Below, one piece after another: positions 3,812 through 57,566 of a DNA stretch of 58,967 nt (its first letter is position 1; every line of letters begins with the position of its first letter). The position numbers were made by a program, and so were the translations under genes. Source of the stretch: an uncultured bacterium (GTDB lineage Bacteria > Spirochaetota > UBA4802 > UB4802); the NCBI GenBank assembly GCA_937920495.1, contig CALEUQ010000026.1, positions 1-58,967 on the forward strand, in the 5' to 3' direction. The notes beneath the pieces are model-generated. The model was not told where the DNA came from. It did not search any database and saw only the letters and a program-made list of their open reading frames with translations.

Positions 3812-5065
3812 TTACGTATTCTTGAAACGTTTTGGACAGCCTTTAATTTCTGTATCCAGAAAATGTACAACACCATCCATTATCTCGATCGTTGCGTGTA
3901 CAACTTCGGGTTCAATGTGCTCTGTGGTGTCATTCATGGTGTGATACACACTATCTTCTTGTTCAACCTCAGTGGGCAATGCAATTAATGTTGTTGCCAC
4001 TGCACCGGCTTTAGCTAGTGGTGCTGCATCGGTGGCGCCGGTTCCAGGATACATGGCAAATGTGCTGGCAGGGTATCCCTTGCTATGAGCTATCGCCACA
4101 CATCTTTTTGCAAATTCTTCTGAAAGCTTTACAAAACCGTTCACATCACCTGTCAAAAATTTGACAAGCTTTTGTTTATACAGGCTGTCAATATTCAGGT
4201 GATACGTTGGCATGCTGCCTATGAGCTCTTTGTATTTGTGAGCAAATGCCTTTGATCCTTTAAGTCCACATTCCTCGCCATCAAAGCTTGCAAAAATTAT
4301 GCGGGTATATTGGGGGCGATAGTTACTGTAATATTTTGCCATCACTATAGTTAATGCGCTTGCTATAAGGTTATCTCCAGCACCTGGCGTTGCGTGTTTG
4401 CTTTTAAAAAAAAGCATCTGTAGGTTTGCAATACCAAGCAGAATGATTGCCACCATGAAAATGGTATGAGCTGTGTGTGAACCAAACCAGTAGTTGTTTG
4501 CAACTATCAGCCATCCAGTGACAAGCGACAGCACCATGGAAAGAATAATTGATGCAACGCGTATGCGATATAGCCGCGGGGTTGTGCGCATATACCGGAA
4601 CTCAAACGCACTGTCGTGATGTCCACTGATGATAATTTGCTGGCGCACTTCTTTTGTAGGCTGTATAATCCCAATTGCATTATAACCTTGTTGCGGTTTG
4701 TAAAGAAAATCAAATGTGCCTTTATAAAGAATAAATTGCTGTGTTGCAAAGATGTTGGCAAGAGTAAATACTATGGCAGCCAATATGTAGCATTGTAAAA
4801 AAATTAAGATAACTGCTGCTACAAACATCCATGGTACAATAGTAAGAAATCCTAAAAAAGCACCGGGATGAGTTACAAAGTACTGTATACGGGCTGAGTT
4901 GCAATATACACTATAAAGAATTTGTAATATTCGTGCAGTGACATACGAATCATTTGAGCAGGATGGTCGCGGGCCAATAGTGTCAATAATTGTCTCAACA
5001 ATGTCGAATGCATATCTGGTAAGTGAGTTTCGTATTCTTTTGTTCATCATCTTTTTCTTGTTCAT
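3812..5065 (-). CDS. Membrane-associated M28 family zinc aminopeptidase
   Basis: An M28-family metallopeptidase of about 417 residues. The di-zinc ligand set can be read in order: SGHHDS (His, Asp), PGAGDNLIAS (bridging Asp), DGEECGLKGS (catalytic Glu and ligand Glu), HLNIDS (Asp) and YHTMNDTTEHI (last His). Two hydrophobic blocks, one ahead of the peptidase core and one inside it after GHHDS, suggest four to five membrane spans, so the catalytic domain is membrane-tethered. The frame stays open upstream to a TTG at 5107; I prefer ATG 5065, but no clear ribosome site decides it. Codons of the gene include two exact GGCGATAG-type motifs (4090-4097 and 4315-4322). The substrate is unknown. Confidence 0.85.
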   Translation of the reverse strand: MNKKKMMNKRIRNSLTRYAFDIVETIIDTIGPRPSCSNDSYVTARILQILYSVYCNSARIQYFVTHPGAFLGFLTIVPWMFVAAVILIFLQCYILAAIVFTLANIFATQQFILYKGTFDFLYKPQQGYNAIGIIQPTKEVRQQIIISGHHDSAFEFRYMRTTPRLYRIRVASIILSMVLSLVTGWLIVANNYWFGSHTAHTIFMVAIILLGIANLQMLFFKSKHATPGAGDNLIASALTIVMAKYYSNYRPQYTRIIFASFDGEECGLKGSKAFAHKYKELIGSMPTYHLNIDSLYKQKLVKFLTGDVNGFVKLSEEFAKRCVAIAHSKGYPASTFAMYPGTGATDAAPLAKAGAVATTLIALPTEVEQEDSVYHTMNDTTEHIEPEVVHATIEIMDGVVHFLDTEIKGCPKRFKNT

Positions 5066-5138
5066 CTTATTACAGAGCACGTTGTTGCAAAGCATTTTTT
5101 CAAGCAATGAGTGTCAGCAATCATTACATCCAGGGTAA

Positions 5139-5146
5139 CTATCGCC
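5139..5146 (-). repeat. GGCGATAG motif (extended GGCGATAGTTAC), intergenic
   Basis: The plus strand reads GGGTAACTATCGCC, a full 12-base form of the dispersed motif described in the findings. It lies between the M28 gene and the efflux operon. Confidence 0.8.
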
Positions 5147-5242
5147 AGATTATAAGTAAAAGATACTACCATGACATAAACTTCAATAACTTTTTTTAAA
5201 AAACGAGTTTGTGTTCAATTTTTTATTGAAACTTTTTGGTTA

Positions 5243-5260
5243 TTTGGCTAAATTGCCAAA
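5243..5260. promoter_or_regulatory. ArsR-type operator candidate upstream of the RND operon
   Basis: The inverted repeat TTTGGC, spacer TAAATT, GCCAAA matches the core of the larger palindrome upstream of arsR (11564-11595) with the same six-base spacer and one spacer change. It implies control of the efflux operon by the ArsR protein encoded at 11627. Confidence 0.65.
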
Positions 5261-5339
5261 GATATGATATTGTTTAAATTATCAACAAGTTACTATCATT
5301 ATCACTAAACGATATTTAGATAGTACAATAAGGTTCCGG

Positions 5340-5372
5340 GGACACCTTTTAGCAAATGTGACGGCGGTGTCC
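5340..5372 (+). terminator. Hairpin with T tract in the efflux operon leader
   Basis: GGACACC pairs with GGTGTCC across a 19-base loop and is followed by TTTTCATT. It lies between the operator and the GTG start, so it could be a terminator for upstream transcription or an attenuator. The preceding GGTTCCGGGG makes the segment look like a small inserted element. Confidence 0.4.
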
Positions 5373-5454
5373 TTTTCATTACTAATAGCGAACTTTGTTC
5401 ATCAAGTCAATAACGTGGCGTGTGATCCTATTTCTTTTAATAAGGAGGTTGCGT

Positions 5455-12020: not shown

Positions 12021-13319
12021 ATGGATTGGAAGAGTGAATTAAAGAAGCTTGTGTATATTCTTGCAGCTTTTTTTGTATTTTATTATTTACCGGTTGGTAA
12101 TGCACGTTTTGATAACGCGGTATTTGAAGCGTTGCAGCTATCAAAATGGTATGCTCAGGAGCATGTACTGCTGTGCCTGGTGCCTGCATTTTTTATTGCA
12201 GGAGCTATCGCCGCATTTGTAAGCCAGAATAGTGTCATGAAATATTTGGGCCCAACAGCGCCCAAGGTTTTGGCCTATGGAGTGGCATCGGTTTCCGGTA
12301 CAATACTTGCGGTATGCTCGTGTACAGTACTTCCGCTTTTTGCCGGTATTTATACCATGGGTGCTGGTTTGGGGCCGGCAACGGCGTTCTTGTATTCAGG
12401 ACCTGCAATTAATGTGCTGGCAATCATCTTAACGGCAAGGGTACTGGGATTAGAGATTGGAGTGGCACGAGCCGTTGGTGCAATAGCATTTAGCGTTGTG
12501 ATTGGTGCATTGATGTATCTTATCTTCCGAAAAGAGGAGATAGAAAAAGCCAACGCTATGATGAATATGCCAGAGCCTGAAACGCCGCGACCGCTGTGGC
12601 AAACCGCTATCTACTTTTTTTTAATGGTAGCAATACTGGTATTTGCCAACTGGGGAAAGCCTGCAAATCCTGAAGGGATATGGTATACTATTTATAGTTA
12701 TAAATGGGAAATAACTGCTATCTCTTCTGTGCTCTTTGGTCTTGTGCTTGGTGCATGGTTTGGTGTTAAGTGGTGGAAGATATTTGTTTCGTTTGCCGCT
12801 GTTGCTGCTCTGGGCTACTTGCAGCATGAACCCCAGATTCCATTTGCAGCAGGAGTAATTGCACTCACATTAATCACTGCAACCCAGAAGGGTGAAATGA
12901 CAACGTGGCTTGAGCAGACATGGTCATTTGCAAAACAGATTTTGCCACTGCTGCTTGGGGGTGTGCTTGTTGCAGGATTTCTGCTGGGGCGTCCAGGGCA
13001 TGAAGGAATCATACCTTCCGAATGGGTTTCTGCTGCTGTTGGTGGCAATTCGCTATTTGCAAACTTCTTTTCTTCGCTTGTGGGAGCATTCATGTATTTT
13101 GCAACACTTACCGAAGTGCCAATATTACAGGGCTTACTTGGTAACGGTATGGGGTATGGACCGGCTCTTGCGCTGCTTCTGGCAGGTCCTGCATTATCGC
13201 TTCCAAATATGCTTGTTATCCGCAGTGTCATTGGAACAAAAAAAACAGTTATTTACGTATCGCTGGTTGTAGTAATGGCAACAATCAGCGGGCTTATTTT
13301 TGGAATGTTTTATATGTAG
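12021..13319 (+). CDS. ArsP-like / DUF318 family permease
   Basis: A 432-residue polytopic permease of the DUF318 family, which includes the organoarsenical exporter ArsP. About ten hydrophobic segments are visible. The signature CSCTVLPLFAGIYTMGAGLG carries Cys99 and Cys101; a cysteine pair at this place is linked to trivalent arsenical transport in ArsP. A second, similar half (GPALALLLAGPALSLPNMLVI) supports an internal duplication. It is longer than the roughly 310-residue ArsP and resembles the long permeases found beside small CxxC redox proteins, one of which lies at 14568. A strong site (AAAAAGGAG) precedes the ATG. Substrate inferred from family and the arsR neighbour. Confidence 0.87.
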   Translation: MDWKSELKKLVYILAAFFVFYYLPVGNARFDNAVFEALQLSKWYAQEHVLLCLVPAFFIAGAIAAFVSQNSVMKYLGPTAPKVLAYGVASVSGTILAVCSCTVLPLFAGIYTMGAGLGPATAFLYSGPAINVLAIILTARVLGLEIGVARAVGAIAFSVVIGALMYLIFRKEEIEKANAMMNMPEPETPRPLWQTAIYFFLMVAILVFANWGKPANPEGIWYTIYSYKWEITAISSVLFGLVLGAWFGVKWWKIFVSFAAVAALGYLQHEPQIPFAAGVIALTLITATQKGEMTTWLEQTWSFAKQILPLLLGGVLVAGFLLGRPGHEGIIPSEWVSAAVGGNSLFANFFSSLVGAFMYFATLTEVPILQGLLGNGMGYGPALALLLAGPALSLPNMLVIRSVIGTKKTVIYVSLVVVMATISGLIFGMFYM

Positions 13320-13332: not shown

Positions 13333-13545
13333 ATGCTGAAGAAGATTGCCATTGTGGCTTTTATGTGTGCGATAGTTACCGGTAAAGTATTTGCAGAGGA
13401 AAGCAAGCTATTGGTAAATATTTCAGGTGTTGGCTATCGTTTTAGCAAGGATGTACGAACTATTGTATATTATCAGCATAAAAAGGACGATACCAAAACC
13501 AGGGCTGATGATGTTGTATATATCAAATGTGGTATAAGCTTTTGA
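13333..13545 (+). CDS. Small exported protein, probable remnant of an outer membrane porin
   Basis: A 70-residue protein with a clear signal peptide (cleavage after VFA, about residue 21). The rest reads as two amphipathic beta strands: ISGVGYRFSKDVRTIVYYQH, a polar turn, then VVYIKCGISF with the terminal Phe typical of outer membrane beta-barrels. This looks like a signal peptide joined to the last hairpin of a larger porin, so it may be an internal-deletion relic instead of a true small gene. It sits 13 bases after the permease stop with a GGGGAT-type ribosome site, and is probably cotranscribed. Confidence 0.55.
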   Translation: MLKKIAIVAFMCAIVTGKVFAEESKLLVNISGVGYRFSKDVRTIVYYQHKKDDTKTRADDVVYIKCGISF

Positions 13546-15024: not shown

Positions 15025-15441
15025 ATGAATAAATCGTTGTATGTATTGTTGGTTATTTTATCAGTTACTATCGCCTGTAAACAAAATAATGATGATATGC
15101 ACGCACAGCAAAACACGTCAGTGCACACCACAATGGTGGCTGAAACACAAAACAAGGCATTGGTAACATTTATTGAAATAGGCTCGGTTAATTGTATACC
15201 GTGCCGTATGATGCAACCGGTTATGGAAAAGGTAAAACAGAAGTATGGTAGCAAGGTCTCTATTCTATTTTATGATGTGTGGACACAGGAAGGGGCACCG
15301 TATGCGCAAACATACGGCATACGGGTAATCCCCACACAGGTTTTTTTAGACAGTAACGGCAAAGAGTTTTTTCGCCATGAAGGGTATTTTCCATTTGAGG
15401 CAATTGATGCACTTCTACAGCAGCATGGGGTAAAACCATGA
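15025..15441 (+). CDS. Periplasmic lipoprotein thioredoxin
   Basis: A 138-residue thioredoxin-fold lipoprotein. The signal peptide ends in lipobox VTIAC (Cys18); the codons of this lipobox contain the GGCGATAG motif in reverse. The active site is Cys57-Ile-Pro-Cys60 (SVNCIPCRMM), and GIRVIPTQVF supplies the cis-Pro. It faces the periplasm and overlaps by four bases the gene for a CcdA-like membrane protein, which is expected to reduce it with electrons from the cytosol. The likely job is to keep periplasmic thiols or a metalloid-binding target reduced. GGAGGATAGG precedes the ATG. Confidence 0.9.
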   Translation: MNKSLYVLLVILSVTIACKQNNDDMHAQQNTSVHTTMVAETQNKALVTFIEIGSVNCIPCRMMQPVMEKVKQKYGSKVSILFYDVWTQEGAPYAQTYGIRVIPTQVFLDSNGKEFFRHEGYFPFEAIDALLQQHGVKP

Positions 15442-18948: not shown

Positions 18949-20037
18949 ATGCGCTTTGAATGGATGGGCAGGCAGGAAAGACAATATGTAGCTGATACAA
19001 TTAGTCAGGTATATATTGAGCTTTCCACTGCCTGTAATTTATCGTGTACCACCTGTGTACGACATTCTATCAAAAATTTTGAGATAGCTCATTTTAAAAA
19101 ATCAATGATGAAAGGGCTGATTGCGCAATTACAAAAGTTACAAAGCCTGAAGCGTATTGTACTTTTGGGTTTTGGCGAAGCATTATGCAATCCTGATATA
19201 CAGTGGCATTTGGAGCAATTGGGTACACTTAATGTGCCGATAGTTCTTGTTACAAATGGGATGCGTATTGATACAACACTGGCAACGCTTTTTGTTCATA
19301 TACCAATTGAAGCAGTATACATATCAATTGATGACATTTACGGGATAAATCCAGTAATACGTAAAGGTGGCAGTAGCGATGTGCCACTGTCAGCAATCAG
19401 ATTAATTAAAAAAATAAAACAAGAAGAAAATAACACCAAACCGTTAATTGGCATTGAAACTGTTGCCACTACACATAACATTGATAAAATTGATGCAATA
19501 ATCCTTACTGCAAAAGAAGCTGGAGCAGAGCATTGTATAGTGAGTAATGTATTTCCCTATACAGATGAAATGAGCAAGAATATCCTGTATACAATTGATG
19601 GCAGTGGAGACAGGTTGACATTAATTAGAAAAAAATTCTATAAAGATAAAAGTGTTACTATTGCAGGTGGAAGTGCTTCGGTTGCACGGCACTGTCCTTT
19701 TATTGAAAAGGGCACAATATTTATTACCGTCAATGGCCAAATTGCTCCCTGTCCGGAATTAGCTTATACGCATACGGCATATTACTTTGGCAATCCACGC
19801 GTACATCAGAAGCATTGGTTTGGCACTATCACAAAAGGTAATATTACTGATATATGGAACAGTAACGAGTATGTGAGCTTTAGGGACACGTTCAGATATT
19901 TTGAATTTCCTGATTGTACATTGTGTGTTGAACCAGATATGTGCTTTCACCGCACAGTGGAAAACAAAGATTGCTACTGGAATACATCACCCTGTGGTGA
20001 ATGTTTATGGGCAAAAGGTATAGTACTGTGCCCATGA
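18949..20037 (+). CDS. Radical SAM/SPASM protein, resembles tungsten aldehyde oxidoreductase maturases
   Basis: A 362-residue radical SAM enzyme. The 4Fe-4S site is Cys29-x3-Cys33-x2-Cys36 (ACNLSCTTCVRHS). A SPASM-like tail with many cysteines follows (CTLCVEPDMC, then DCYWNTSPCGECLWAKG). The TCVRHS run, the NVFPYTDEM stretch and the Cys-rich CGECLWAKG ending are what I recall of the maturases for tungsten-bispyranopterin oxidoreductases, but no aldehyde ferredoxin oxidoreductase gene lies in this window. It begins 24 bases after acr3 with no clear ribosome site, so it is probably cotranscribed and coupled. It could alternatively modify a peptide or an arsenical. The radical SAM call is firm; the subfamily is tentative. 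Confidence 0.75.
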   Translation: MRFEWMGRQERQYVADTISQVYIELSTACNLSCTTCVRHSIKNFEIAHFKKSMMKGLIAQLQKLQSLKRIVLLGFGEALCNPDIQWHLEQLGTLNVPIVLVTNGMRIDTTLATLFVHIPIEAVYISIDDIYGINPVIRKGGSSDVPLSAIRLIKKIKQEENNTKPLIGIETVATTHNIDKIDAIILTAKEAGAEHCIVSNVFPYTDEMSKNILYTIDGSGDRLTLIRKKFYKDKSVTIAGGSASVARHCPFIEKGTIFITVNGQIAPCPELAYTHTAYYFGNPRVHQKHWFGTITKGNITDIWNSNEYVSFRDTFRYFEFPDCTLCVEPDMCFHRTVENKDCYWNTSPCGECLWAKGIVLCP

Positions 20038-23408: not shown

Positions 23409-23429
23409 ATAAAATGTTATTATCAGGTA

Positions 23430-23437
23430 CTATCGCC
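23430..23437 (-). repeat. GGCGATAG motif, intergenic
   Basis: The plus strand reads GGTACTATCGCCACC, in the 5' leader of the CoA operon, 22 bases before the ATG. Confidence 0.75.
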
Positions 23438-28260: not shown

Positions 28261-28288
28261 AGGCGATAGTAACTATTAACTATCGCCT
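28261..28288. terminator. Inverted pair of GGCGATAG motifs, candidate terminator
   Basis: AGGCGATAGT, loop AACTATTA, ACTATCGCCT is a perfect 10-base stem followed by AAATTTTTTAT. Both arms are copies of the dispersed motif. It lies between the thiolase stop (28195) and the dapA ATG (28323), the position for termination of the CoA operon. A TTGACA at 28221-28226 without a good -10 is not convincing as a dapA promoter. Confidence 0.7.
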
Positions 28289-33048: not shown

Positions 33049-33056
33049 GGCGATAG
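33049..33056 (+). repeat. GGCGATAG motif (full GGCGATAGTTAC), intergenic
   Basis: Starts seven bases after the stop of the GGDEF/EAL gene and reads GGGCGATAGTTACCTG. Confidence 0.75.
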
Positions 33057-33107
33057 TTACCTGTAAAAAGTACCATTGACATGCAAAGCCACATTTCAAA
33101 AATTGTC

Positions 33108-35552: not shown

Positions 35553-35604
35553 AGTAACCTCCGTGAATAATAATGGCTTTATAGAAAAAATTATTTATTA
35601 ATAA

Positions 35605-35612
35605 CTATCGCC
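35605..35612 (-). repeat. GGCGATAG motif, intergenic
   Basis: The plus strand reads AATAACTATCGCCCAC, upstream of the small beta-barrel gene. Confidence 0.7.
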
Positions 35613-44818: not shown

Positions 44819-45230
44819 ATCAATCACCTGAAAATAGATTTAAGTATTAATGTGGTTTTAGGTTCTTGATTTATCAGTTTGATGAATCTTGCTTTATATA
44901 ATAGATTAACATTATTCGTCACTCTGCTCATGATAATGGTATGTACACAATATATTATATATTCATCACGCGTGTGCTCCAATACACTGATACTCCTTGT
45001 AATTTTTCATCAGACGCAGTTTATTAAGTTTGTAAAACTACTGAACAGCAACACATAATTTTAACAGTAACTATCGCCACAACTCAAATGAAAACAATTC
45101 TGTTGTAGGTGTGTATACTGTAAAGCATTAAATTTAACATGCATGTAACATTTATATCTACTTTTCAATTGAATATGATTGTATACGAGCTATCTATGGT
45201 AATTACCACTAAAAAATTCAAGAGGGTACT
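44819..45230. other. Intergenic region before the glutamate synthase genes
   Basis: About 400 AT-rich bases. It contains a full-length GGCGATAG-type site (45071-45078, in GTAACTATCGCC). No clear promoter or riboswitch is seen. Confidence 0.4.
45071..45078 (-). repeat. GGCGATAG motif (full 12-base form), intergenic
   Basis: The plus strand reads CAGTAACTATCGCCAC, 150 bases upstream of the glutamate synthase operon. Confidence 0.75.
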
Positions 45231-46286
45231 ATGTGTGGAATAGTTGGAATTATAAACACTGACCTAACCAAAATTGATGGAAGTTATATACGTGAAGCAA
45301 TACGCATTCAAAACGAGCGTGGCAATGGCCTTGGCGGAGGTTTTGCTGCGTATGGCATATATCCTGAACATAAGGATAATTATGCTGTCCATATTATGTA
45401 TCAGGCAGGCAGACACAGCGATGTTATAAAAAAGATTGAAAGCTATCTGGAACAAAAAACCAAGGTTCATCACTCTGAGGAAATACCGGTATATCCCACA
45501 AGCGTGATCCCTGCAGGACCATACTTTAAACGCTATTTTGTCAATCCGTTGAAAGAGCAGATACCTGTTGGAAAAAATGAAGATGATGCTATGGTAGACA
45601 TTGTGATGGCAATTAACAGGATGGGCTTTGCGTATGTACTATCGTCGGGTAAAGATATGGGTGTGTTTAAAGGTGTAGGGTTTCCGGAAGACATTGCAGA
45701 TTTCTTCAGAATACAGGATTATAAAGGATATATGTGGATTGCGCATAATCGTTTTCCCACCAATACTCCCGGATGGTGGGGTGGTGCACATCCCTTCACC
45801 ATACTTGACAAAGCTGTTGTGCACAATGGTGAGATAACAAGTTATGGTACAAACAAACGATGGCTTGAAATGTTTGGCTACTTCTGCATGCTTCAGACTG
45901 ACACTGAGGTAATCAGTTATATCTTTGACAAGCTGACTAGAAAAGATGGTCTCAGTGTTGATGATGCCTGTTTTGTGATGGCTCCATCACTGTGGGAAGA
46001 CATTGAATATGAAAACTCACACAAAAAAATGCTGCTCAGGCAATTATATGGACAGGCAATAGTGAATGGACCTTTTGGTATTGTATTAACACATTCCGGT
46101 GGGGCGATAGTTCTTAATGACAGGAACAAATTGCGGCCAGTAGTCTGCGCGCGCGTTGGTTCAACCTATTATGCATCATCCGAAGAATGCAGTATCAGGT
46201 TACTGTCGCCAAAGGTTGATGAGTTGTGGTCGCCAAAAGGTGGAGAAGCTGTTATTGTGAATTTAGCAAAACAGGAGGTGGCATAA
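45231..46286 (+). CDS. Glutamate synthase, class II amidotransferase subunit
   Basis: A 351-residue N-terminal-nucleophile amidotransferase (GATase II) that releases ammonia from glutamine. Cys2 of MCGIVGIIN is the nucleophile after Met removal. RFPTNTPGWWGGAHPF and HNGEITSYGTNKRW are the glutamine-binding and oxyanion residues. In most bacteria this domain forms the front of GltB; here it is a separate gene, as in archaeal and some anaerobic bacterial split synthases. AGAGGG precedes the ATG. Its stop overlaps the next ATG by one base. Confidence 0.92.
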   Translation: MCGIVGIINTDLTKIDGSYIREAIRIQNERGNGLGGGFAAYGIYPEHKDNYAVHIMYQAGRHSDVIKKIESYLEQKTKVHHSEEIPVYPTSVIPAGPYFKRYFVNPLKEQIPVGKNEDDAMVDIVMAINRMGFAYVLSSGKDMGVFKGVGFPEDIADFFRIQDYKGYMWIAHNRFPTNTPGWWGGAHPFTILDKAVVHNGEITSYGTNKRWLEMFGYFCMLQTDTEVISYIFDKLTRKDGLSVDDACFVMAPSLWEDIEYENSHKKMLLRQLYGQAIVNGPFGIVLTHSGGAIVLNDRNKLRPVVCARVGSTYYASSEECSIRLLSPKVDELWSPKGGEAVIVNLAKQEVA

Positions 46287-47826: not shown

Positions 47827-50001
47827 ATGGTCCTGAATGCAGTATTAAATGCTAAAGGTATCTATTATAAAATGTTAAACCGCCAGATACGTGAACTTAT
47901 TGCAAAAGGCGAAACGGTCATAACACTTGAAAATGTATTGGGCCAGCGCTACATAGGAGGAGGGCTCAAGGCAAATGTTATTATAAATATTAATGGCACA
48001 CCGGGTCAGGATCTAGGTGCATTTATGAACGGTCCTGAGATAACTGTGCATGGTAATGTACAGGATGGTATTGGGAATACCATGAACAGCGGTAGCATCG
48101 TAGTTCATGGAAAAGCAGGCGAGATTCCTGGCCATTCAATGCGTGGTGGAAAAATTTTAATCCGCGATGATGTGGAGTATCGTGCAGGGATACACATGAA
48201 GGAATACGAACACCAGATTCCACGTATTGTTATTGGTGGTACGGCCAAAGATTACTGTGGTGAATACATGGCTGGTGGGCGCGTTGTTGTGTTAAACCGC
48301 TTTGATGAAAAAGAACCAGTGGGCAATGATATCGGTACCGGCATCCATGGCGGTGTAATTTACATTCGCGGTAATGTTGAAAAGCGTCGCCTTGGTGTGG
48401 GTGCTATTATTGCAGAGATGGATAATGAAGATGTGTTATTCTTACAAAACGTGTTGAATGATTTTACGGCAGCATTTCCTTATGTTGAACTATCGCACAT
48501 AACTATAAACGATTTTATGAAAATTACTAAAAAAGGGCACAGACCTTTTGCTAATCTATATGCTCCTGCAATGAATATTAAAACAAAAAAGCCTATTCAT
48601 CTTAACCTGACGCCGCCGTGTACGTATGCATGTCCAGGCGGAATTCCAACTCCTGTGTTTATAAACCTGATTAAAGACGGTAAGATTAAAGAAGCACAGT
48701 TGCTGATGGATGAGTACACCCCACTGCGGATGTCGGTGTGCGGCACGGTGTGTCCTGCACCATGTATGGATGCGTGTAGTCGCAACATGATAGATGGACC
48801 AATGAATATTCCGTATTTAGCGCGTGAATACTATCCTGATTTTAATCCTGCTGTGTATGGTAAACCAAAGGATAAAACAATAGCCATCATTGGTGCAGGC
48901 CCCGCAGGGCTTTCGGCTGCATGGCAGCTTGCTCGTAGAGGCTATAAGGTTACCGTTTTTGAAAAAACATCTGATATTGGCGGCAAAGTACGAATGGCAA
49001 TTCCTAAAGACAGATTGCCCGATGAAGTTCTGTATAAGGATCTCAATCGTATAAAAAGCTTACCCATTGCATTTAAGCTCAACACAGCGGTTGACAAACA
49101 ACTTTTTACAAAAATTCATGAAGAGTTTGACGCTGTATTGGTAGCAACGGGCGCGTATATTTCGCGAACGCTGCAGGTCAGAGGTGGTGAGCGCATTATA
49201 TCAGGTCTTGAATTTTTGGTTGGTATCAACGAAGGCAATCCAATGGACCTTACAGGAAAAGATGTTGTTATTATTGGTGCCGGTAATGTTGGTATGGATA
49301 TTGCATGTGAATCGTGGCGACATGGAGCAAAGAGTGTGACCGCAATAGACATTCAAAAGCCGCTTGCCTTTGGCAAAGAGCTGGACATGGCTAAAAGCTT
49401 TGGCACACAAATTGTTTGGCCACGGAATATCGAGTACATAGATGAAGGGTATGTTCATTTTACCAACGGCCAGGAGCTTAAGGCGGATGTTGTGTTTATA
49501 AGTATTGGTGAAAAACCGGATCTTTCATTTTTAGGTGACAGCGTAATGGTAAATGAAAGGGGGGCGATAGTAACCGGTCAAAAATCCTTCAAAAGTTCAG
49601 ATCCCAAAATATTTGCCTGTGGTGACATTGTGAAGCCCGGACTTATTACCGATGCAATTGGGATGGGAAGATTAGCTGGTATGGAGATACATGCAACGCT
49701 CTCGGATGAGGATTTTATCTATCCCGAAAAAACACTGGTGCCAAAACGGAGGATCAACATTGCGTACTTTGGCGGCGAGACACGTGAAGTGGACAGATGT
49801 ATAAGCTGTGGCACATGTATTTTCTGTGATAAGTGTGTGGAAGCATGCCCACAGGGAGCTATTACACGAAATGGCGAAATCTTTACCATTGACTCAGAGC
49901 TGTGTACCGCCTGTTATACCTGTGTCAATATATGCCCGCGTGGTGCATTGCAGCCTGGTGATTTTGATGCAGTGGTGCAGGATGTGCTTTTCAAGAAGTG
50001 A
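47827..50001 (+). CDS. Glutamate synthase GltB3-GltD fusion with ferredoxin tail
   Basis: A 724-residue fusion. Residues 1-230 form the GXGXG beta-helix of glutamate synthase (repeats such as GNVQDGIGNTMNSGSIVVHG). About 260-330 is the Cys-rich Fe-S domain of GltD (CTYACPGGIPTP, CGTVCPAPCMDACSR). Next is the FAD/NAD oxidoreductase with GAGPAGLSAAW and GAGNVGMDIACE. The end has two 4Fe-4S clusters (CISCGTCIFCDKCVEACP, CTACYTCVNICP). It should pass electrons from NAD(P)H or ferredoxin to the FMN subunit. AAAGGAGG precedes the ATG, 14 bases after the previous gene. One GGCGATAG motif lies in its codons (49563-49570). Confidence 0.93.
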   Translation: MVLNAVLNAKGIYYKMLNRQIRELIAKGETVITLENVLGQRYIGGGLKANVIININGTPGQDLGAFMNGPEITVHGNVQDGIGNTMNSGSIVVHGKAGEIPGHSMRGGKILIRDDVEYRAGIHMKEYEHQIPRIVIGGTAKDYCGEYMAGGRVVVLNRFDEKEPVGNDIGTGIHGGVIYIRGNVEKRRLGVGAIIAEMDNEDVLFLQNVLNDFTAAFPYVELSHITINDFMKITKKGHRPFANLYAPAMNIKTKKPIHLNLTPPCTYACPGGIPTPVFINLIKDGKIKEAQLLMDEYTPLRMSVCGTVCPAPCMDACSRNMIDGPMNIPYLAREYYPDFNPAVYGKPKDKTIAIIGAGPAGLSAAWQLARRGYKVTVFEKTSDIGGKVRMAIPKDRLPDEVLYKDLNRIKSLPIAFKLNTAVDKQLFTKIHEEFDAVLVATGAYISRTLQVRGGERIISGLEFLVGINEGNPMDLTGKDVVIIGAGNVGMDIACESWRHGAKSVTAIDIQKPLAFGKELDMAKSFGTQIVWPRNIEYIDEGYVHFTNGQELKADVVFISIGEKPDLSFLGDSVMVNERGAIVTGQKSFKSSDPKIFACGDIVKPGLITDAIGMGRLAGMEIHATLSDEDFIYPEKTLVPKRRINIAYFGGETREVDRCISCGTCIFCDKCVEACPQGAITRNGEIFTIDSELCTACYTCVNICPRGALQPGDFDAVVQDVLFKK

Positions 50002-50289
50002 GAATGTAAATAATTTCTTGCTAAATATACTGCACTGAAGTACTTTTTGTATCATACATTAATTATTCAATACATTACATCGTGTGGTTACAAAAAGTAT
50101 ATTCTATATATGCTGGGTGATAGTTACACTAAAATTATGGAATAAATATTGATTGTTACATACATGTTAAATAGTATAACTTTTATACAATATCGCTTAC
50201 TGCAAGATTGACTTTTTATAAGTAAAAATTTTAATGTAGCTACTTTGAGAAATTTATAATAAAGTTTGCATCTAAAGAGAGGTTTATGT
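50002..50289. other. Intergenic region before glnN with weak promoter
   Basis: Nearly 290 AT-rich bases. TTGACT at 50208-50213 with TTAATG at 50231-50236 (17 bases) is a weak promoter candidate. A near copy of the dispersed motif, GGTGATAGTTAC, lies at 50116-50127. No riboswitch is recognised. Confidence 0.35.
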
Positions 50290-52458
50290 ATGAAGCGTTT
50301 TATTAAGAATATTGCAACAGAGCGTGAGTATGTGGTAACACGTGAAAAGGAGATGCCTGTTTCTCAGTATTATGGAGAAGATACATTCAATTTTCAAGTG
50401 ATGCGTCAGAAATTGCCTGCCAATGTGTGTAAAAAACTGATGCGTATTATAAAAGAAGGCGACAGGTTAGATCCTGAAATTGCAGAAACTGTTGCACATG
50501 CAATGAAGGAATGGGCTATAGAAAAGGGAGCTACCCATTTTTGCCATTGGTTTCAGCCCATGACCGGTGCAACTGCTGAAAAGCATGATTCATTCCTGGA
50601 ATTTACTGAATATGGTGAGGCTATTGAAAGGTTCAGCGCAGAAACACTGGTGAAAGGAGAGCCTGATGCGTCAAGCTTCCCAAGTGGTGGATTGCGCTCA
50701 ACATTTGAAGCACGTGGATACACTGCGTGGGATCCTTCAAGCCCTGCGTTTATCCTGCGTAGCGGAATAGGTGCAACACTGTGTATACCAACTGTATTTC
50801 TTTCATATACTGGTGAAGCGCTGGATAAAAAAACGCCACTGCTTCGTTCCATTAATGCAATCAATAAAAGTGCACTGAGGGTGATGAGATTATTGGGTAA
50901 TGATAAGGCTACGCGTGTAATATCAACAGTGGGTCCTGAACAGGAATATTTTCTTGTTGATATGGACTTCTACTATAAACGCCCGGATCTGGTATTAACA
51001 GGTCGTGCGCTTTTGGGTGCTGCACCCACCAAAGGGCAGCAGCTGGAAGACCATTACTTTGGCAGCATCAAAGAAAGAATATTATCGTATATGCATGATG
51101 TTGAAGAGGAGCTTTACAAATTGGGTATACCTGCAAAAACACGGCACAATGAGGTAGCACCAAGTCAGTATGAGATAGCTCCCATATTTGAGGAGGCAAA
51201 TATTGCTGTTGATCATAACCATTTAATAATGGAAACTCTCAAACGGGTTGCTCAGAAACATAAATTAGCTGCCTTACTTCATGAAAAGCCATTTGCAGGC
51301 ATTAATGGGTCGGGCAAACACTGTAATTGGTCATTATCGGATAATTTAGGCAATAACCTGCTCAATCCCGGTCAATCACCGCAGGACAATGTACAGTTTC
51401 TGGTATTTCTGACTGCAACTGTTCGTGCGGTGTACTATCATGCTGATTTGCTGCGTGCGTCGGTAGCTTCCAGTGGTAATGATCACAGGTTAGGCGCAAA
51501 TGAGGCACCACCTGCCATTATCTCAGTATTTTTAGGCGAGCAGCTTACTAAAATACTCAATGATATTGAACAGGGTGTCATCAGCAAAGCAACCAACAAA
51601 GCAATTATAGATTTAGGCCTTTCATCACTGCCGGTCTTAAGCAAGGATAACACTGACCGCAACCGTACATCACCATTTGCATTTACCGGCAATAAATTTG
51701 AATTCAGAGCTGTTGGTTCTTCGCAATCAATCGCATTCCCTGTTACAATTATTAATACTATCGTTGCTGAAAGCTTAGATATACTTGCAGATAAAATTGA
51801 AACAAAGGGTGGAGATGTGCGCCAGGCAGCAATTGATGTGATTCGTGAAGAAATAAAGACAATAAAACCTATACTTTTTATGGGCGATAATTACTCAAAA
51901 GAATGGGAAGAAGAGGCAGCACGCAGGGGGTTGCCTAATAAAAAAGTAACAGTAGAGTCGTTGCCTGATCTGGTAACAGACAAGGCCAGAAAGCTTTTTG
52001 AAAAATATAATGTGCTTTCACCGGTAGAGCTTGAAGCACGATATGCCATACGTTTGGAACGGTATATCAAAGAAATGGATATTGAAGCCAAAACCATGCT
52101 TGATATGGTGCGTACCAAAATTATACCGGCAACAATGCGATATCAAAGTTCAATTGCGTCATCATGCATGCGTACGGTGGAACTGCTTGGGAAAGACGCA
52201 CCGGTTGATGCGCAGAAAAAATTGTGTGCTGCAATAACAGCGCTTAATAATGATGTAATCAAAGAAGCTGATACTCTTGATGAACTCATTGAAAAAGCTT
52301 GCGGTATTCATGATGAGCTTGAAAAGGCAAAATTTTATGCCTATACAATCAAAGATCAGATGAATACACTGAGGGCAAAAGCTGATATGCTGGAAGCACA
52401 TTCAAGTGATAACCTGTGGCCATTCCCACGATTCTGGGAGATGCTGTTTATGTCGTAA
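50290..52458 (+). CDS. glnN: Glutamine synthetase type III
   Basis: Makes glutamine from glutamate, ammonium and ATP. At 722 residues it matches the large type III enzymes (GlnN) and not the 450-residue type I. Signatures include HFCHWFQPMTGATAEKHDSF, GPEQEYFLVD, ARHNEVAPSQYE-like TRHNEVAPSQYEIAP, GINGSGKHCNWSL and NRTSPFAFTGNKFEFRAVGSSQ. I use ATG 50290, preceded by AGAGAGG; an in-frame start upstream lacks it. With the three preceding genes it makes a GS-GOGAT module, although it has its own leader. It ends 7 bases before a bidirectional terminator. Confidence 0.96.
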   Translation: MKRFIKNIATEREYVVTREKEMPVSQYYGEDTFNFQVMRQKLPANVCKKLMRIIKEGDRLDPEIAETVAHAMKEWAIEKGATHFCHWFQPMTGATAEKHDSFLEFTEYGEAIERFSAETLVKGEPDASSFPSGGLRSTFEARGYTAWDPSSPAFILRSGIGATLCIPTVFLSYTGEALDKKTPLLRSINAINKSALRVMRLLGNDKATRVISTVGPEQEYFLVDMDFYYKRPDLVLTGRALLGAAPTKGQQLEDHYFGSIKERILSYMHDVEEELYKLGIPAKTRHNEVAPSQYEIAPIFEEANIAVDHNHLIMETLKRVAQKHKLAALLHEKPFAGINGSGKHCNWSLSDNLGNNLLNPGQSPQDNVQFLVFLTATVRAVYYHADLLRASVASSGNDHRLGANEAPPAIISVFLGEQLTKILNDIEQGVISKATNKAIIDLGLSSLPVLSKDNTDRNRTSPFAFTGNKFEFRAVGSSQSIAFPVTIINTIVAESLDILADKIETKGGDVRQAAIDVIREEIKTIKPILFMGDNYSKEWEEEAARRGLPNKKVTVESLPDLVTDKARKLFEKYNVLSPVELEARYAIRLERYIKEMDIEAKTMLDMVRTKIIPATMRYQSSIASSCMRTVELLGKDAPVDAQKKLCAAITALNNDVIKEADTLDELIEKACGIHDELEKAKFYAYTIKDQMNTLRAKADMLEAHSSDNLWPFPRFWEMLFMS

Positions 52459-52501: not shown

Positions 52502-53809
52502 CTAATACAATACGTATTTTTTATTTCTTCTATCTATAAGCTGCACGTATTTATATCTATCACCTGACAGAGCATGGTCAAGCAAACGGTATCCTTCTTT
52601 CTGGCATCTATCGCACGCATTAAGCGGTATCTCAATACCCAAGCATAACGGGTTCACAGTGGACGTTGTCTCAATTTTAAGTACCCCGCGGCATTCATCA
52701 CACACCATAATGGATTCAAGCTGCATTTCACGGATATTGTCGGTGTCATAATAAATTTCTTTTTTACGCACATCGTAATTACCAGGCATAAGTTTAAATG
52801 AAGGCTTTTTGCATTCTTCGTATCGCTTTAACACCTGGTCGCACAGCCTTTTAATATATTTTGTTATTTCTTTATCCTGGCTAAGGTCCTTCTGGGAATA
52901 ATCCGGCTCATGCACGTATGAATAATCCAGGCCTGCCATGGCAAGCGTTATGCCTAAGTTGACGTATGGCAATGCTCCCTGAATGGAATATCCACCTTCA
53001 AGAACTGCAATATCGGCATTGAGCATTTCGGTAAGCTGTGCATAACCTAATGCTGAAAAATTCATATTGGTAATAGGGTCCGAGTAGTGGTTATCCTGCC
53101 CTGCAGAATTAATAATTATATCCGGTTTAAAATCTTTCAATATGGGAAGTACTACGCGTTGCATAGCCATTAAGAATCCTTCGTCAGAAGTGTTGGGAGG
53201 TAAAGGAATATTAATGGTAGTACCCAATGCATTTGGACCACCTAATTCATGGATGGCACCGGTTCCAGGATAGAGAGTCCTGCCATCCTGATGCATGGAT
53301 ATATACAACACATCCCTATCATGCCAGTAGATATCCTGAGTGCCATCACCATGGTGGCAATCAGTGTCCACAATGGCTATCTTTTTTACAGGATAGTGTT
53401 CCCGTATATATTCCACCATCACTGCTTCAATATTTATGTTGCAGAAACCCCGTGCTCCGTGAACCACCTTCATGGCATGATGGCCCGGTGGGCGTACCAG
53501 TGCAAATGATTTATTTACTATGTGATCCATTACTAAGTTTGCAGCTTTTATGGTTCCACCGGCAGATATTAAATGCGACTGTGTGGTTACTTTTGAAACA
53601 TCAGGGAAGCAGAAGTGCGTGCGCATGATATCATCGTAACTGGCGATATCGGGTTTGTACTGGTAAATGCCTTCAATATCAAATACACCTTCTTCATTGA
53701 GCTGGTCAAGCGTGTATAATAACCGCTCCTCACGCTCGGGATGCAGCGGATGTATTGCCCAGTCAAATGCCGGGAAAAATACAACGCCCAATGTTGACTT
53801 TGCTTTCAT
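52502..53809 (-). CDS. Histone deacetylase-like amidohydrolase with C-terminal zinc ribbon
   Basis: A 435-residue protein of the HDAC/acetoin-utilisation family, acting on acyl-lysine or acyl-polyamine-like substrates. Metal and catalytic motifs are intact: RPPGHHAM (His pair), VDTDCHHGDGTQDIYW (Asp and His ligands), INSAGQDNHYSDP (Asp ligand) and VLEGGYSIQGALPY. After the core (about residue 350) comes a tail with two Cys pairs (VCDECRGVL, ACDRCQKEG), a zinc-ribbon-like extension I do not know from the family. I choose ATG 53809, which overlaps the upstream stop as ATGA. It shares a transcript with the hydantoinase. Confidence 0.88.
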   Translation of the reverse strand: MKAKSTLGVVFFPAFDWAIHPLHPEREERLLYTLDQLNEEGVFDIEGIYQYKPDIASYDDIMRTHFCFPDVSKVTTQSHLISAGGTIKAANLVMDHIVNKSFALVRPPGHHAMKVVHGARGFCNINIEAVMVEYIREHYPVKKIAIVDTDCHHGDGTQDIYWHDRDVLYISMHQDGRTLYPGTGAIHELGGPNALGTTINIPLPPNTSDEGFLMAMQRVVLPILKDFKPDIIINSAGQDNHYSDPITNMNFSALGYAQLTEMLNADIAVLEGGYSIQGALPYVNLGITLAMAGLDYSYVHEPDYSQKDLSQDKEITKYIKRLCDQVLKRYEECKKPSFKLMPGNYDVRKKEIYYDTDNIREMQLESIMVCDECRGVLKIETTSTVNPLCLGIEIPLNACDRCQKEGYRLLDHALSGDRYKYVQLIDRRNKKYVLY

Positions 53810-55476
53810 ATCTTCAGTATATCTCTGCATTGATGTAAGATCCCTGGCTTAACCTGGCAGTGTACTCGTATATTTTTGCCAGTAGTTTCAAAACCATCCA
53901 CCATGTTGAATGCGTACACCTGTAAAATTTCAATCTGGCGTTCACGCTCATCAACGCCTATTGATTCTAAAAACTGCATCATGTAGTTGGTTGCATCCTC
54001 AATAGCATTATCAACGTCATAATCCTGTGGTATACGGATATTGACATTAAGGTTTGGTACAAGTAACCTGCATCGCTGAGTATCAGCAAATAGCTCAATA
54101 TCAACAGTGGTGCGTGCAACCGCTGCACCAATAGCATTGGCAACCTGGCTGTACGGTGGCACCTTAACGTTCCATCCAAACCTCTGCGTAATGTGAAAAG
54201 CCAGTGTTTTTGCCGGTCCTCCAATAAGGTAGATTGTTTTTGGTTGCAGCACTTTGCCTTTAAGAAATTCATGAATGGTATAGACCGGACGTGAATTAAC
54301 CTCATCAATCATTGCCATGACTTCATTGTAGATAATGTCAAGGGCGTATGTAATTGCCTGCTGAGCTATAGTCTGTGCAGGTATTCCTGATTTTTTTTCA
54401 AGGGATGATAATCCTTCCTGTGAACGGGCGGTATTCTTGAAGTTGATTGTCCCTATGACGTTGAGTGCATCAATGATTGTTGGGTTCTGACCACCTTCAG
54501 CCATGGACATACCTAAACGCTGTGGTCCGGCAGTAACTGCAGTGCCATCAACTTTTATTGCCGAATCCCCGCCAATACCAATTGATTTTGTTTTGAGTGA
54601 ACGCACCAGCGTATTGTGTGTATTTAATCGTATGCCGTCCTTTTCAATTAATGGAGCGCCGTCAGCAAATAAGGCAATATCGCAGGATGTGCCACCAATA
54701 TCAAGCATAACCGCATCCTGCGTAATATTACACAGCGCCATGGTGCCAATCACGCTTGCAGCAGGCCCCGATAAAATTGATTCAACCGGGATTGAGCGTG
54801 ATACATGTAGCGGGATAGTTCCGCCATCGGCTTTGAGTATATTAACCGGAGCTATCACCCCCAGCGATTTCAGGCTTTCTTCAATGGCGTAAGAAAAGGT
54901 ATTGTACAGGCGCCACACTGCTGCATTGTAGTATGCTGTTGCAATACGCCGTGGGAAATTAAGATTGCCGGACATAGTATGGCCCACACTGACAAAGTCA
55001 GCATCGGAAAGTTTTTGCTGTATATACTGTTCGTGGATGGGGTTTCGTGTGGAAAATTTAGATACAACAGTATACACTTTTATATCTTTTTTGCGGCATT
55101 TTTTTAAAGCTTTTTCAAGCTGATGAAGATTAAGCAAGGTAATTTCAGTGCCCCTGTGGTCAATCTGCCCGTCTATGATGAAGTAGTAGTTGCCAATAGA
55201 GTAGTGGGCAGGATTAATGCCAGGACCACCTGATACAAATATGCCCACTTCTTCACATTTGTTTTCAATAATTGCATTGGTGGTAAGTGTGGTACTTAAG
55301 TTAACCCGCTTAATATGGGAAGGGTCAATGCCGGTTAATACATTCTTGAATGCTTCATTAATGCATTCTAAAAGGTTGTGGTGTGTGGTGGCAACTTTAG
55401 TGTGTGCAATAACACCAGATTTGTCTATAATAACCGCATCGGTATGTGTTCCGCCTACATCAAGACCTAAGTACAT
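53806..55476 (-). CDS. Hydantoinase/oxoprolinase family ATPase (HyuA-like)
   Basis: A 556-residue protein of the HyuA branch with the actin-like ATPase fold (GLDVGGTHTDAVIID and the later GGPAKTLA and DIGGTSCDIALF phosphate loops). Members open cyclic amides or carboxylate ketones (acetone carboxylase, hydantoinase, oxoprolinase), always with partner subunits. No HyuB-type partner lies in this window. It is shorter than the 700-residue stand-alone forms. The stop overlaps the deacetylase start; ATG 55476 lies six bases after the previous stop. The physical link to a deacetylase is unusual. Confidence 0.85.
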   Translation of the reverse strand: MYLGLDVGGTHTDAVIIDKSGVIAHTKVATTHHNLLECINEAFKNVLTGIDPSHIKRVNLSTTLTTNAIIENKCEEVGIFVSGGPGINPAHYSIGNYYFIIDGQIDHRGTEITLLNLHQLEKALKKCRKKDIKVYTVVSKFSTRNPIHEQYIQQKLSDADFVSVGHTMSGNLNFPRRIATAYYNAAVWRLYNTFSYAIEESLKSLGVIAPVNILKADGGTIPLHVSRSIPVESILSGPAASVIGTMALCNITQDAVMLDIGGTSCDIALFADGAPLIEKDGIRLNTHNTLVRSLKTKSIGIGGDSAIKVDGTAVTAGPQRLGMSMAEGGQNPTIIDALNVIGTINFKNTARSQEGLSSLEKKSGIPAQTIAQQAITYALDIIYNEVMAMIDEVNSRPVYTIHEFLKGKVLQPKTIYLIGGPAKTLAFHITQRFGWNVKVPPYSQVANAIGAAVARTTVDIELFADTQRCRLLVPNLNVNIRIPQDYDVDNAIEDATNYMMQFLESIGVDERERQIEILQVYAFNMVDGFETTGKNIRVHCQVKPGILHQCRDILKI

Positions 55477-55481
55477 AATTA

Positions 55482-56303
55482 TCACCAGCTACCAGATGAT
55501 CCTCCGCCGCCAAAACTGCCACCACCACCGCTAAAACCACCAGAAGAAAAACCACCACCAGAAGAAAAACCACCTCCAGAATATCCACCGCCACTGTGTG
55601 CTAATAATGTAGCCATAATACCTGCAAAAAAGCCAATACACAATAAAATGACCAATGCTGAAAAGCCAAAACCAAATAAAGCTCCTATGATTGGCAGCAC
55701 AATAGCACCAATAATCCCGCTTTTAAGCGGGCCTAATGAGCCTAAAAATGATAATATAATTATTGCAATCAAAAAAAATGCACCATAATCAGGAGCTGAC
55801 TTTTGCGGCTTTAGGCTGCTGGCATCAAATTTTCCTTTTACAATATCAATGATGGCATCAACAGCCTTTGCAATGCCAGCATCGTAATCGCCATTTTTAA
55901 ATTCAGGGATAATGATATAATCAATGATCCTTCCCGCAAGTAGATCAGTCAGTGTTTCTTCAAGGCCCCTGCCAACCTCAATGCGTACCTTGCGGTTATC
56001 CCGTGCAACTAAAATAATGACGCCATTATCAAGACCTTTCTGGCCAATCTTCCATTTTTCAGCCAGGCGGATTGAGTAGCTTTCAATATCTTCATTGCCA
56101 ATGGATGGTACTGTTGCTACCACCACCTGCGTTGAATCTTCCTTTTCCAGTTGCGTTAATTTAGCTTCTATTTCAGCTTCAACAGTCTCTGAAAGCATAT
56201 CAGCATAATCGTTGACGTGGGCTTTCAAGGGCGGTATATCCTCCCGGGCAAAGACGCCTGAGAATATGGCACAGGCCATACATATAGCAGTTACCCATCT
56301 CAT
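55482..56303 (-). CDS. TPM-domain membrane protein (YgcG-like)
   Basis: A 273-residue protein with signal peptide (cleaved after VFA, about residue 19), an extracytoplasmic TPM phosphatase-like domain (HVNDYADMLSETVEAEIEAKL, GQKGLDNGVIILVARDNRKVRIEVGRGLE), membrane helices (about 185-240) and a Gly/Ser-rich tail of FSSGGGFSSGGFSGGG type. This is the YgcG architecture, commonly encoded beside LemA. It overlaps the previous gene by four bases. Function in the envelope is unknown. Confidence 0.92.
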   Translation of the reverse strand: MRWVTAICMACAIFSGVFAREDIPPLKAHVNDYADMLSETVEAEIEAKLTQLEKEDSTQVVVATVPSIGNEDIESYSIRLAEKWKIGQKGLDNGVIILVARDNRKVRIEVGRGLEETLTDLLAGRIIDYIIIPEFKNGDYDAGIAKAVDAIIDIVKGKFDASSLKPQKSAPDYGAFFLIAIIILSFLGSLGPLKSGIIGAIVLPIIGALFGFGFSALVILLCIGFFAGIMATLLAHSGGGYSGGGFSSGGGFSSGGFSGGGGSFGGGGSSGSW

Positions 56304-56959
56304 TGGTTATCACCAATAATTATATTTTTAAGCTCATCAACATCGTCGGCTTTGTAAGGATACTCTTTAGAAAGGCGCACAGCGATGGTGTCGATGGTTG
56401 CACACAGCGCAGGCACAAATTGCTTTTGCTTTATACCAGCAATAATCATCTTTACACAATTGTCCCAGAATTCAGGTTCAATCTTTTTGTGGGCATCTTC
56501 GTCAGCAAGAATCCAGACCTTTTTTTCCAGAAGCGATATATAGATGAGCACACCATTTTTATCGGCTGTTTTGTACAGGCCATTTTTATAAAATGCAGTG
56601 ATGGCGGCTTCGCGCACCTCGGCGTCAACCTGGCGCGGGCTTAAAAAAAAGCGGGTTAAGGTAATACTATGTGCGATAGTTACTTTGAAAATAATAAACA
56701 GTATAGAAAAAAACACAATGAAGATCCACAGGTTATCTTTGTGAAAGTAAAAAAGCGGCGCAATATAATACGTTAATGCAATTGCAATCGGAAGCGAGAA
56801 GAGTGCTGCTGCATACACCTTTGCAAGCGGGTAGGTGTAGCTTGCATTGACAATCATTGGAACAATCTCTGCGCTTGTCTTTTTCTCGGCTTGTTTCACT
56901 GCATCGATAATACACTGCGCATCAGACTGCGATATTATTCTGGCAATAAGGTCTTTCAT
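56300..56959 (-). CDS. TPM-domain protein with two membrane helices
   Basis: A 219-residue relative of the preceding TPM protein. It starts AIIDAVKQAEKKTSAEIVPMIV, then has two membrane spans (about 45-100) before a second TPM half with VLIYISLLEKKVWILADEDAHKKI. It lies between LemA and YgcG in a LemA-TPM-TPM operon, the common order. Its ATG is 13 bases after the LemA stop with the GGCGATAG motif in between. Role unknown. Confidence 0.88.
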   Translation of the reverse strand: MKDLIARIISQSDAQCIIDAVKQAEKKTSAEIVPMIVNASYTYPLAKVYAAALFSLPIAIALTYYIAPLFYFHKDNLWIFIVFFSILFIIFKVTIAHSITLTRFFLSPRQVDAEVREAAITAFYKNGLYKTADKNGVLIYISLLEKKVWILADEDAHKKIEPEFWDNCVKMIIAGIKQKQFVPALCATIDTIAVRLSKEYPYKADDVDELKNIIIGDNQ

Positions 56960-56965
56960 CGGTAA

Positions 56966-56973
56966 CTATCGCC
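56966..56973 (-). repeat. GGCGATAG motif between lemA and TPM gene
   Basis: The plus strand reads CGGTAACTATCGCCTAC, filling most of the 13-base gap between the two genes. Confidence 0.75.
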
Positions 56974-57566
56974 TACTCAAATGAAACTTTGGGGGCTTCT
57001 TTTGCTCCCTCTTCAGCCTTGAAGTATTCTTTGCGTTCCAGATGAAGTAGCAGGCTGTTTGTTATGTTATATGGAAAAATCCTGATGGATGAGTTGAATT
57101 CCTTTACTGCCTGGTTATACCGCTGTCGTGCTACATTGATGCGGTTTTCCGTTCCTTCAAGCTGGTGCATAAGGTCGGTAAAGTGCGCATCGGCTTTCAA
57201 GTTGGGGTAGCGTTCAATGACCACCATAAGTCGTGCTAAGGCGCTTGAAAGCTCGCCCTGTGCAGCCTGAAATTTTGCAATCTTCTCAGGGTTGCTTAAG
57301 TCTTTGGGCGATAGTTGAACGGAAGTGGCTTTTGCCCGCGCTTCAATGACTGCCTGCAGAGTCTGCTTTTCGTGCGCGGCATAGCCCTTCACAGTGGCTA
57401 CCAGGTTTGGAATAAGGTCAGCCCTTCGCTGCAGCGCCGATTCTAAATCGCCATACGCCTTGAATACCTCTTCTTCCTGCATCTGCAATTTATTGTATCC
57501 GCATCCTGTAAATGATACAAGTGACAAAGCAACAAACACTAACAGAATGTAAGAAAATTTTTTCAT
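56973..57566 (-). CDS. lemA: LemA family lipoprotein
   Basis: A 197-residue LemA protein: lipoprotein signal with lipobox SFTGC (Cys22), then the coiled helical core with [41 protein letters not shown] and [15 protein letters not shown], full family signatures. It should be attached to the outer face of the inner membrane or to the outer membrane. It opens the lemA-TPM-TPM operon and is probably cotranscribed with the hydantoinase and deacetylase genes that follow. Includes an exact GGCGATAG motif (57307-57314). Confidence 0.95.

Follow-up and report, generated by a model that had tools for sequence, protein, structure and literature searches.

The window analyzed here, positions 1 to 58,967 of contig CALEUQ010000026.1 (assembly GCA_937920495.1) of an uncultured bacterium of the lineage Spirochaetota; UBA4802; UB4802, carries numerous scattered copies of a short asymmetric motif. 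The motif is overrepresented throughout its genome, is abundant only in its own genus among the Spirochaetota genomes compared, and is often preserved in place between species. Judging from these sequence properties, the ~20-bp motif may be a tag for recognition of self-DNA that is maintained by molecular drive in an uptake-like manner, a reading that we favor only tentatively.

Overrepresentation and anatomy of the motif

A preliminary description of the window had reported 17 exact copies of the 8-mer GGCGATAG where about one would be expected by chance. All 17 positions are correct, with 7 copies on the forward strand and 10 on the reverse strand, and 100 dinucleotide shuffles of the window gave a mean of 0.65 copies and a maximum of 4, none (0/100) reaching 17. 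The 12-mer GGCGATAGTTAC has 27 matches in the window at up to two mismatches against 2.74 expected, and the near-copies named in that description (13368, 38507, 56672, and 50116) were recovered among them. Scanning with a weight matrix gives 34 window sites above 12 bits (Table 1); the simulated rate would account for 3 or 4 of them.

The overrepresentation holds for the whole genome (G000; 3.02 Mb in 86 contigs), where GGCGATAGTTAC occurs 156 times (74 forward and 82 reverse) and its reversed control 0 times. Statistics were taken from 859 kb of the 3.02 Mb, composed of the window and 40 stretches of 20 kb, and every one of these 40 stretches contains at least one copy of GGCGATAG. The strongest 9-mer in the sample is the core GCGATAGTT, with 185 copies against 12.6 expected under an order-4 Markov model. 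With the weight matrix, which was trained on the very sequence in which the sites were counted, 520 sites exceed 12 bits against 52 in simulated sequence. The excess amounts to 540–630 sites per Mb across cut-offs from 6 to 12 bits, and extrapolation therefore gives roughly 1,650–1,900 sites in the genome. The excess drops with mismatch load; for the 12-mer, 36 copies against 0.0 simulated are followed by ratios of 21x, 4.0x, and 1.1x.

The full motif is an asymmetric signal of ~20 bp, approximately TGKG(C/A)GATAG(T/C)TMCTGnnAA. In 183 aligned sites of G000 the logo is one-sided, with G or T at −3 to −1, A or C and then CTG on the downstream side of the core, and a preference for A at +15 to +17 (frequencies of 0.57, 0.65, and 0.52), and ~10 informative positions lie outside the core. 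The downstream A bases are ~12 bp from the center of GATAG, roughly one helical turn. Near-identical logos, including MCTG after the core, were obtained in two more species (64 sites in G003 and 97 sites in G002). The A bases at +15 and +16 are common to the three species, while +17 differs, being flat in G003 and T in G002. Binding of an EbfC-type protein, whose word is GTnAC, was considered on account of GTTAC in the 12-mer and was dropped because GTTCC is nearly as common as GTTAC.

The enrichment of core variants should be noted. At positions 0 and 1, G0T (5.3x), G0C (3.3x), and C1A (4.7x) are enriched, as are T7C (4.9x), T8A (5.5x), and T8C (3.1x) at the 3′-end, whereas G0A (1.0x) and C1T (1.7x) show little or no enrichment. 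Inside GATAG, T4C alone stands out (9 vs 2.3). The enriched variants GCGATAGTA, GCGATAGCT, and GAGATAGTT retain most of the flanking logo; it is not retained by GCAATAGTT and is partly retained by the unenriched ACGATAGTT and GCGATAATT. Since simple decay would favor transitions everywhere, the substitution pattern looks more like that of a putative sequence reader than the decay of old copies, although two of the variants that stand out, T7C and T4C, are themselves transitions.

Placement of the sites

Genes in the 859-kb sample were called with our own hexamer caller, by which 11.7% of the sample is non-coding. The 185 core sites comprise 153 in called genes, 31 in intergenic regions, and one at a gene edge. 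The earlier impression that about half of the copies lie between genes was too high, the proportions being 7/17 for GGCGATAG in the window and 32/185 for the core in the sample. The non-coding excess is modest (3.08 cores per 10 kb vs 2.02 in coding sequence), and the core exceeds its order-3 expectation 57-fold in non-coding and 28-fold in coding sequence. Coding sites use five of the six frames, the sixth of which would contain TAG, and are found 68 times in the sense and 85 times in the antisense direction of genes.

Strand bias is absent, as had been proposed from the window. With the replication strand inferred from local GC skew, 78 cores are leading and 83 lagging, leaving out 24 of the 185 sites that lie in five low-skew stretches, and the 12-mer gives 16 and 15. 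Across 1.50 Mb from three species, the 1,090 matrix sites that exceed 10 bits show under-dispersion, with variance-to-mean ratios of 0.849, 0.729, and 0.702 at 2, 5, and 10 kb (P = 0.000, 0.000, and 0.002, from 500 simulations each). One region, G000:C11:1-140000 (L014-L020), contains 16 exact cores vs 30.2 expected, and 67 vs 72.5 with tolerated variants.

Conservation between species

Alignment to four congeners covered 228 kb at 74–82% identity, of which G002 supplies 138 kb. The core is identical at 30 of the 56 aligned sites of G000, in contrast to 246/2408 (10%) for permuted words, so the motif is conserved in relatives. The counts by congener are 3/6, 16/32, 8/14, and 3/4, where random 9-base windows give 8–19%. 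The 26 non-identical sites consist of 11 with one-base differences, 11 with two to four, and 4 with gaps. Identity over the core is 0.90 vs 0.746 in the flanks, a separate count giving 0.82–0.92 over the core and about 0.73 around it, and the surroundings of 53 sites are below random positions (0.746 vs 0.777 ± 0.009, P = 0.0006). When both directions are counted, variants are identical in the partner at 18/33 (GCGATAGCT), 8/21 (GAGATAGTT), 6/15 (TCGATAGTT), and 0/11 (ACGATAGTT) sites.

Distribution among genomes

In 256 Spirochaetota genomes drawn from the larger phylum, GGCGATAGTTMC occurs 159–308 times in each of the five genomes of the genus vs 0–4 times in the 251 others. The 12-mer likewise occurs 132–183 times in the five genus genomes vs 0–2 times in the other 54 of 59 genomes. 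A scan of a named genome collection, which may leave out records close to the window's own genome, found 32 stretches with the 18-base form. Of these, Spirochaetota bacterium A05DMB-I-13 contributes 17 and Spirochaetia bacterium UBA2205 contributes 8, and the other 7 are spread over five organisms that have one or two apiece. The motif is a ready computational marker for DNA of this genus.

In the sister genus (G005), a dialect GGTGTGTC(A) seemed enriched in a 72-kb sample and was rejected, as GGTGTGTCAC is found 10 times genome-wide. The contigs C1, C2, C4, C5, and C268 of G005 show a local cluster of GGTGTGTC, and the 10-mer GGTGTGTCAC is rare genome-wide. Two G005 contigs added later (C15 and C623) came from the list of GGTGTGTCAC matches, and the comparison that includes them is biased for G005 because of this choice. 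No word with the motif's count plus ratio was found in G006–G009, from four further families of the order (100–180 kb each), or in G010, G011, G012, and G015 (20–40 kb each). Rare words with high ratios include CACCGTCCC in G007 (7 vs 0.2) and TAACCACGA in G011 (7 vs 0.11).

Candidate uptake machinery in the genus

The drafts of the genus are 93–99% complete. Among the com genes and their partners, ComEC was found in 4/5 genus genomes (28/29 over all searched) and DprA in 5/5 (14/14 over all searched), and a type II secretion system (T2SS) operon is present. The T2SSE family gives one match over the cut-off in each of 12/14 genomes, besides weak partial matches. The match in G000 is GspE in the T2SS operon, where the secretin and a PilM-like protein are recognized by Pfam and the other parts by position, and in three other genus genomes it adjoins N-methyl genes. 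No T2SSE match over the cut-off was found in G002, where the locus is interrupted by a contig end and the gene may therefore be missed. No type IV pilus motor (PilB/PilT) exceeds the family cut-off in the genus. N-methyl pilins were not found in G002 and G005 with a 27-residue model, which divergent pilins could escape. Partial HHH_3 matches are a 427-aa frame over the cut-off in G004 and an 89-aa frame at a contig end, below it, in G002.

At L212:15498-17982, L044, L043, and L045, comEC overlaps an upstream open reading frame (ORF) of ~195–206 aa. By eye, this ORF, whose product ends in GR(L/I), resembles an outer-membrane barrel of small size, and it has no Pfam match in G000. The pair of barrel-like ORF and comEC is seen at 4/4 loci read in this orientation (G000, G001, G006, and G010), with L041 and L046 left out.

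Interpretation as a possible uptake-like tag

The comparison with uptake sequences made in the preliminary description stands in part. Apart from inverted pairing, the tested sequence properties agree with those of uptake sequences under molecular drive. An excess of inverted pairs and the pilus motors were looked for in the genus and not found.

Several observations weigh against an uptake-like tag. ComEC, DprA, and the T2SS are also present in other genera of the order without the motif, and therefore none of them alone is the specificity factor. No T2SSE-family ATPase over the cut-off was found beyond one GspE in 4/5 genus genomes, the N-methyl pilins (four each in four genus genomes) all lie in the T2SS cluster, and no full-length HHH_3/ComEA match exceeds the cut-off in the genus. 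The ComP_DUS model (PF16732) is blank in 13/13 genomes but also in 14 controls. As for spacing, the core alone does not differ from random (coefficient of variation of 0.968 vs 1.025, P = 0.22), and the evenness of the matrix sites loses significance in 20-kb bins (P = 0.058). Nor do inverted pairs at short distance exceed chance; of 412 sites, 14 form 7 opposite-strand pairs within 80 bp vs 7.5 at random, and all pairs within 80 bp number 12 vs 15.2. About 10% of the uptake signal sequences (USS) are in inverted repeats according to the available part of PMC1939737, a usual rather than defining feature. Finally, only 2/34 sites of GCGATAGTA have the identical word in the partner, which reads GCGATAGTT at another 9/34, while the little-enriched GTGATAGTT is identical at 10/21. 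The results thus give no support to uptake by pili of the kind seen in Haemophilus or Neisseria, because the pilus motor and full-length ComEA matches were not found. Nor is the motif classed with the USS or the DNA uptake sequences (DUS); membership is not established, and a machine that defines them, the type IV pilus motors, was searched for and not found.

If the motif is an uptake-like tag, cells would import motif-bearing DNA, and afterwards recombine it, more readily than motif-free DNA, and this preference would cause the motif to accumulate by molecular drive. In the genus, a putative DNA receptor at the cell surface or in the periplasm would read the GATAG core together with the two A bases that follow it after about a helical turn, and the imported strands would pass ComEC and be handled by DprA. 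In the available part of PMC6299819, T2SS-related and type IV secretion system-related proteins are given as other Gram-negative routes. The more specific proposal, that self-DNA uptake sequences originated independently in Spirochaetota without type IV pili, with import by another outer-membrane route, perhaps the type II pseudopilus or the product of the barrel-like ORF beside comEC, and a receptor reading GMGATAGYT plus the downstream A bases, is possible but rather doubtful.

The main rival is a genus-specific DNA-binding protein that organizes or segments the chromosome at these sites under selection for even coverage, which we regard as conceivable though unlikely. Conservation in place, the somewhat even spacing, the presence of GGCGATAG in all the sampled 20-kb stretches, and the failure to find a pilus motor are consistent with such a protein, and the asymmetric ~20-bp logo with downstream A bases would suit a bending protein. 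However, this rival is without a candidate protein, the evenness is weak (variance-to-mean ratio of 0.70–0.85), and the sites are rarer where sequence is constrained, as expected of a costly passenger. We know of no nucleoid protein with more than 1000 specific asymmetric sites. A gene transfer agent or vesicle route, by which motif fragments are preferentially packaged or exported, would give the same drive as biased uptake and would account for a drive-like pattern in the absence of pili. A gene transfer agent is known in spirochaetes, namely VSH-1 in Brachyspira, but the proposal for the motif is purely inferential, and we give it little credence. The motif is also improbable as a by-product resembling the highly iterated palindromes (HIP), for which mutation in the genus would be biased toward the motif by mismatch repair or by a methyltransferase, without functional selection. 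An origin of HIP-type overrepresentation in repair bias has been proposed for cyanobacteria (PMC4390886, available part), the sites here are gained and lost by point change, and the transitions T7C and T4C are among the enriched variants. Against this, there is no palindrome, the informative positions extend far beyond the core, and the transversions C1A, T8A, and G0T are enriched, with little or no enrichment of G0A and C1T.

The motif is short, frequent, and genic, as a polar signal for a DNA translocase or RecBCD/AddAB would be, and it shares with Chi, FtsK-orienting polar sequences (KOPS), and architecture-imparting sequences (AIMS) the character of a short frequent chromosomal word. Chi, KOPS, and AIMS are strand-polar, while the motif has no polarity relative to GC skew or in its genome-wide 12-mer counts, so that a Chi- or KOPS-like role is disfavored as very improbable. 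Spread of the word by a mobile repeat or one protein family, for which the existence of repeats in G000 could be adduced (e.g. around 35721-35849 of the window), is refuted for the bulk of the sites and has a negligible chance. The sites have no common flanks beyond the ~20-bp logo, they use five coding frames, and the aligned sites range from identical cores through base differences to gaps.

Comparison with known systems

Uptake sequences are known in Pasteurellaceae and Neisseriaceae, where uptake proceeds via type IV pilins according to the available parts of the sources. The motif resembles the Pasteurellaceae USS, such as AAGTGCGGT of H. influenzae, in its 9-bp core with less conserved AT-rich flanks, in a frequency of about one site per 1–2 kb in both orientations, in the many genic sites with a non-coding excess, in the drop of the excess with mismatch load, in a relatively even distribution, and in a lower frequency where sequence is constrained (PMC1939737 and PMC7811141, available parts). 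For the H. influenzae USS, the relatively even distribution and the lower frequency in constrained coding sequence are what drive predicts (PMC7811141, available part). Unlike the USS, the motif has an unrelated sequence and occurs in another phylum, and the searches gave neither a type IV pilus motor nor a clear ComEA. With the Neisseriaceae DUS and their dialects it shares a clade-specific, highly repeated 10–12-mer whose inner core is strict and whose ends are less so (PMC3630211, available part). Both the DUS and the motif contain CTG, probably by chance; otherwise the sequences are unrelated, no dialect was found in the other genera sampled, and the search for ComP homologues was blank, as was its control.

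The cyanobacterial HIP1 (GCGATCGC) is likewise an interspersed short word far over expectation. In contrast to the asymmetric ~20-bp motif, HIP1 is a palindromic octamer tied to methyltransferases (PMC4390886, available part), and the kinship that had been suggested is unlikely, as the motif is non-palindromic with a long asymmetric flank. A literature search in open PMC papers found no report of uptake sequences in spirochaetes. A strong, conserved, drive-like motif for which no pilus motor was found would point either to natural transformation by another route or to another purpose for such motifs.

Sites and other repeats

The window sites above 12 bits are listed in Table 1.

Table 1. Motif cores (9 bp) in the 58,967-nt window with position weight matrix (PWM) scores
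Position	Strand	Core	Context	PWM (bits)	Exact word
648..656	-	variant		17.8	
1343..1351	+	variant GTGATAGTT	inverted pair with 1362	16.4	
1362..1370	-	core	inverted pair with 1343	24.4	
4088..4096	-	variant GCGATAGCT		19.2	8-mer
4316..4324	+	core		25.6	12-mer
5137..5145	-	core	intergenic	21.1	12-mer
12203..12211	-	variant GCGATAGCT		21.3	
13369..13377	+	core		26.4	
15066..15074	-	variant GCGATAGTA		22.2	
19081..19089	+	variant GAGATAGCT		16.5	
19237..19245	+	variant CCGATAGTT		19.5	
23428..23436	-	variant GCGATAGTA		24.7	
23761..23769	-	variant GTGATAGTT		20.4	
23810..23818	+	weak, GAGACAGTT		13.2	
28263..28271	+	core	intergenic, inverted pair with 28278	20.4	
28278..28286	-	core	intergenic, inverted pair with 28263	18.4	
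30964..30972	+	core	codons 2-4 at ORF start	23.4	
32309..32317	-	variant GCGATAGCT		20.5	
33050..33058	+	core	intergenic, with A-tract	26.1	12-mer
35603..35611	-	core	intergenic	23.0	
38508..38516	+	core		24.3	
41502..41510	-	core		22.4	
45069..45077	-	core	intergenic, top score of window	27.5	12-mer
46104..46112	+	core		20.7	
48488..48496	-	core		17.4	
49564..49572	+	variant GCGATAGTA		24.1	
50117..50125	+	variant GTGATAGTT		15.8	
51172..51180	+	weak, GAGATAGCT		13.7	
51884..51892	+	weak, GCGATAATT		15.8	
52606..52614	-	weak, GCGATAGAT		13.7	
54850..54858	-	variant GTGATAGCT		19.9	
56673..56681	+	core		24.2	
56964..56972	-	core	between two genes 13 bp apart	23.6	12-mer
57308..57316	+	core		17.3	

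The repeat at 35721-35849 of the window is an interspersed element of ~90 bp, with at least 43 further matching pieces in its own genome at 73–90% identity and weaker matches in G003. The weight-matrix scan of the window found no motif site above 12 bits inside it. In the 859-kb sample of G000, the words GGGGTCAGAGC (18) and CTTCGACAAGCT-type (14) are also overrepresented and presumably resemble REP/RAYT elements. At L034:12292-12407, tandem 19-bp units containing GCGATAGTTCCCC lie between two ORFs, which we take to be RsmD-like and rpmB-like.

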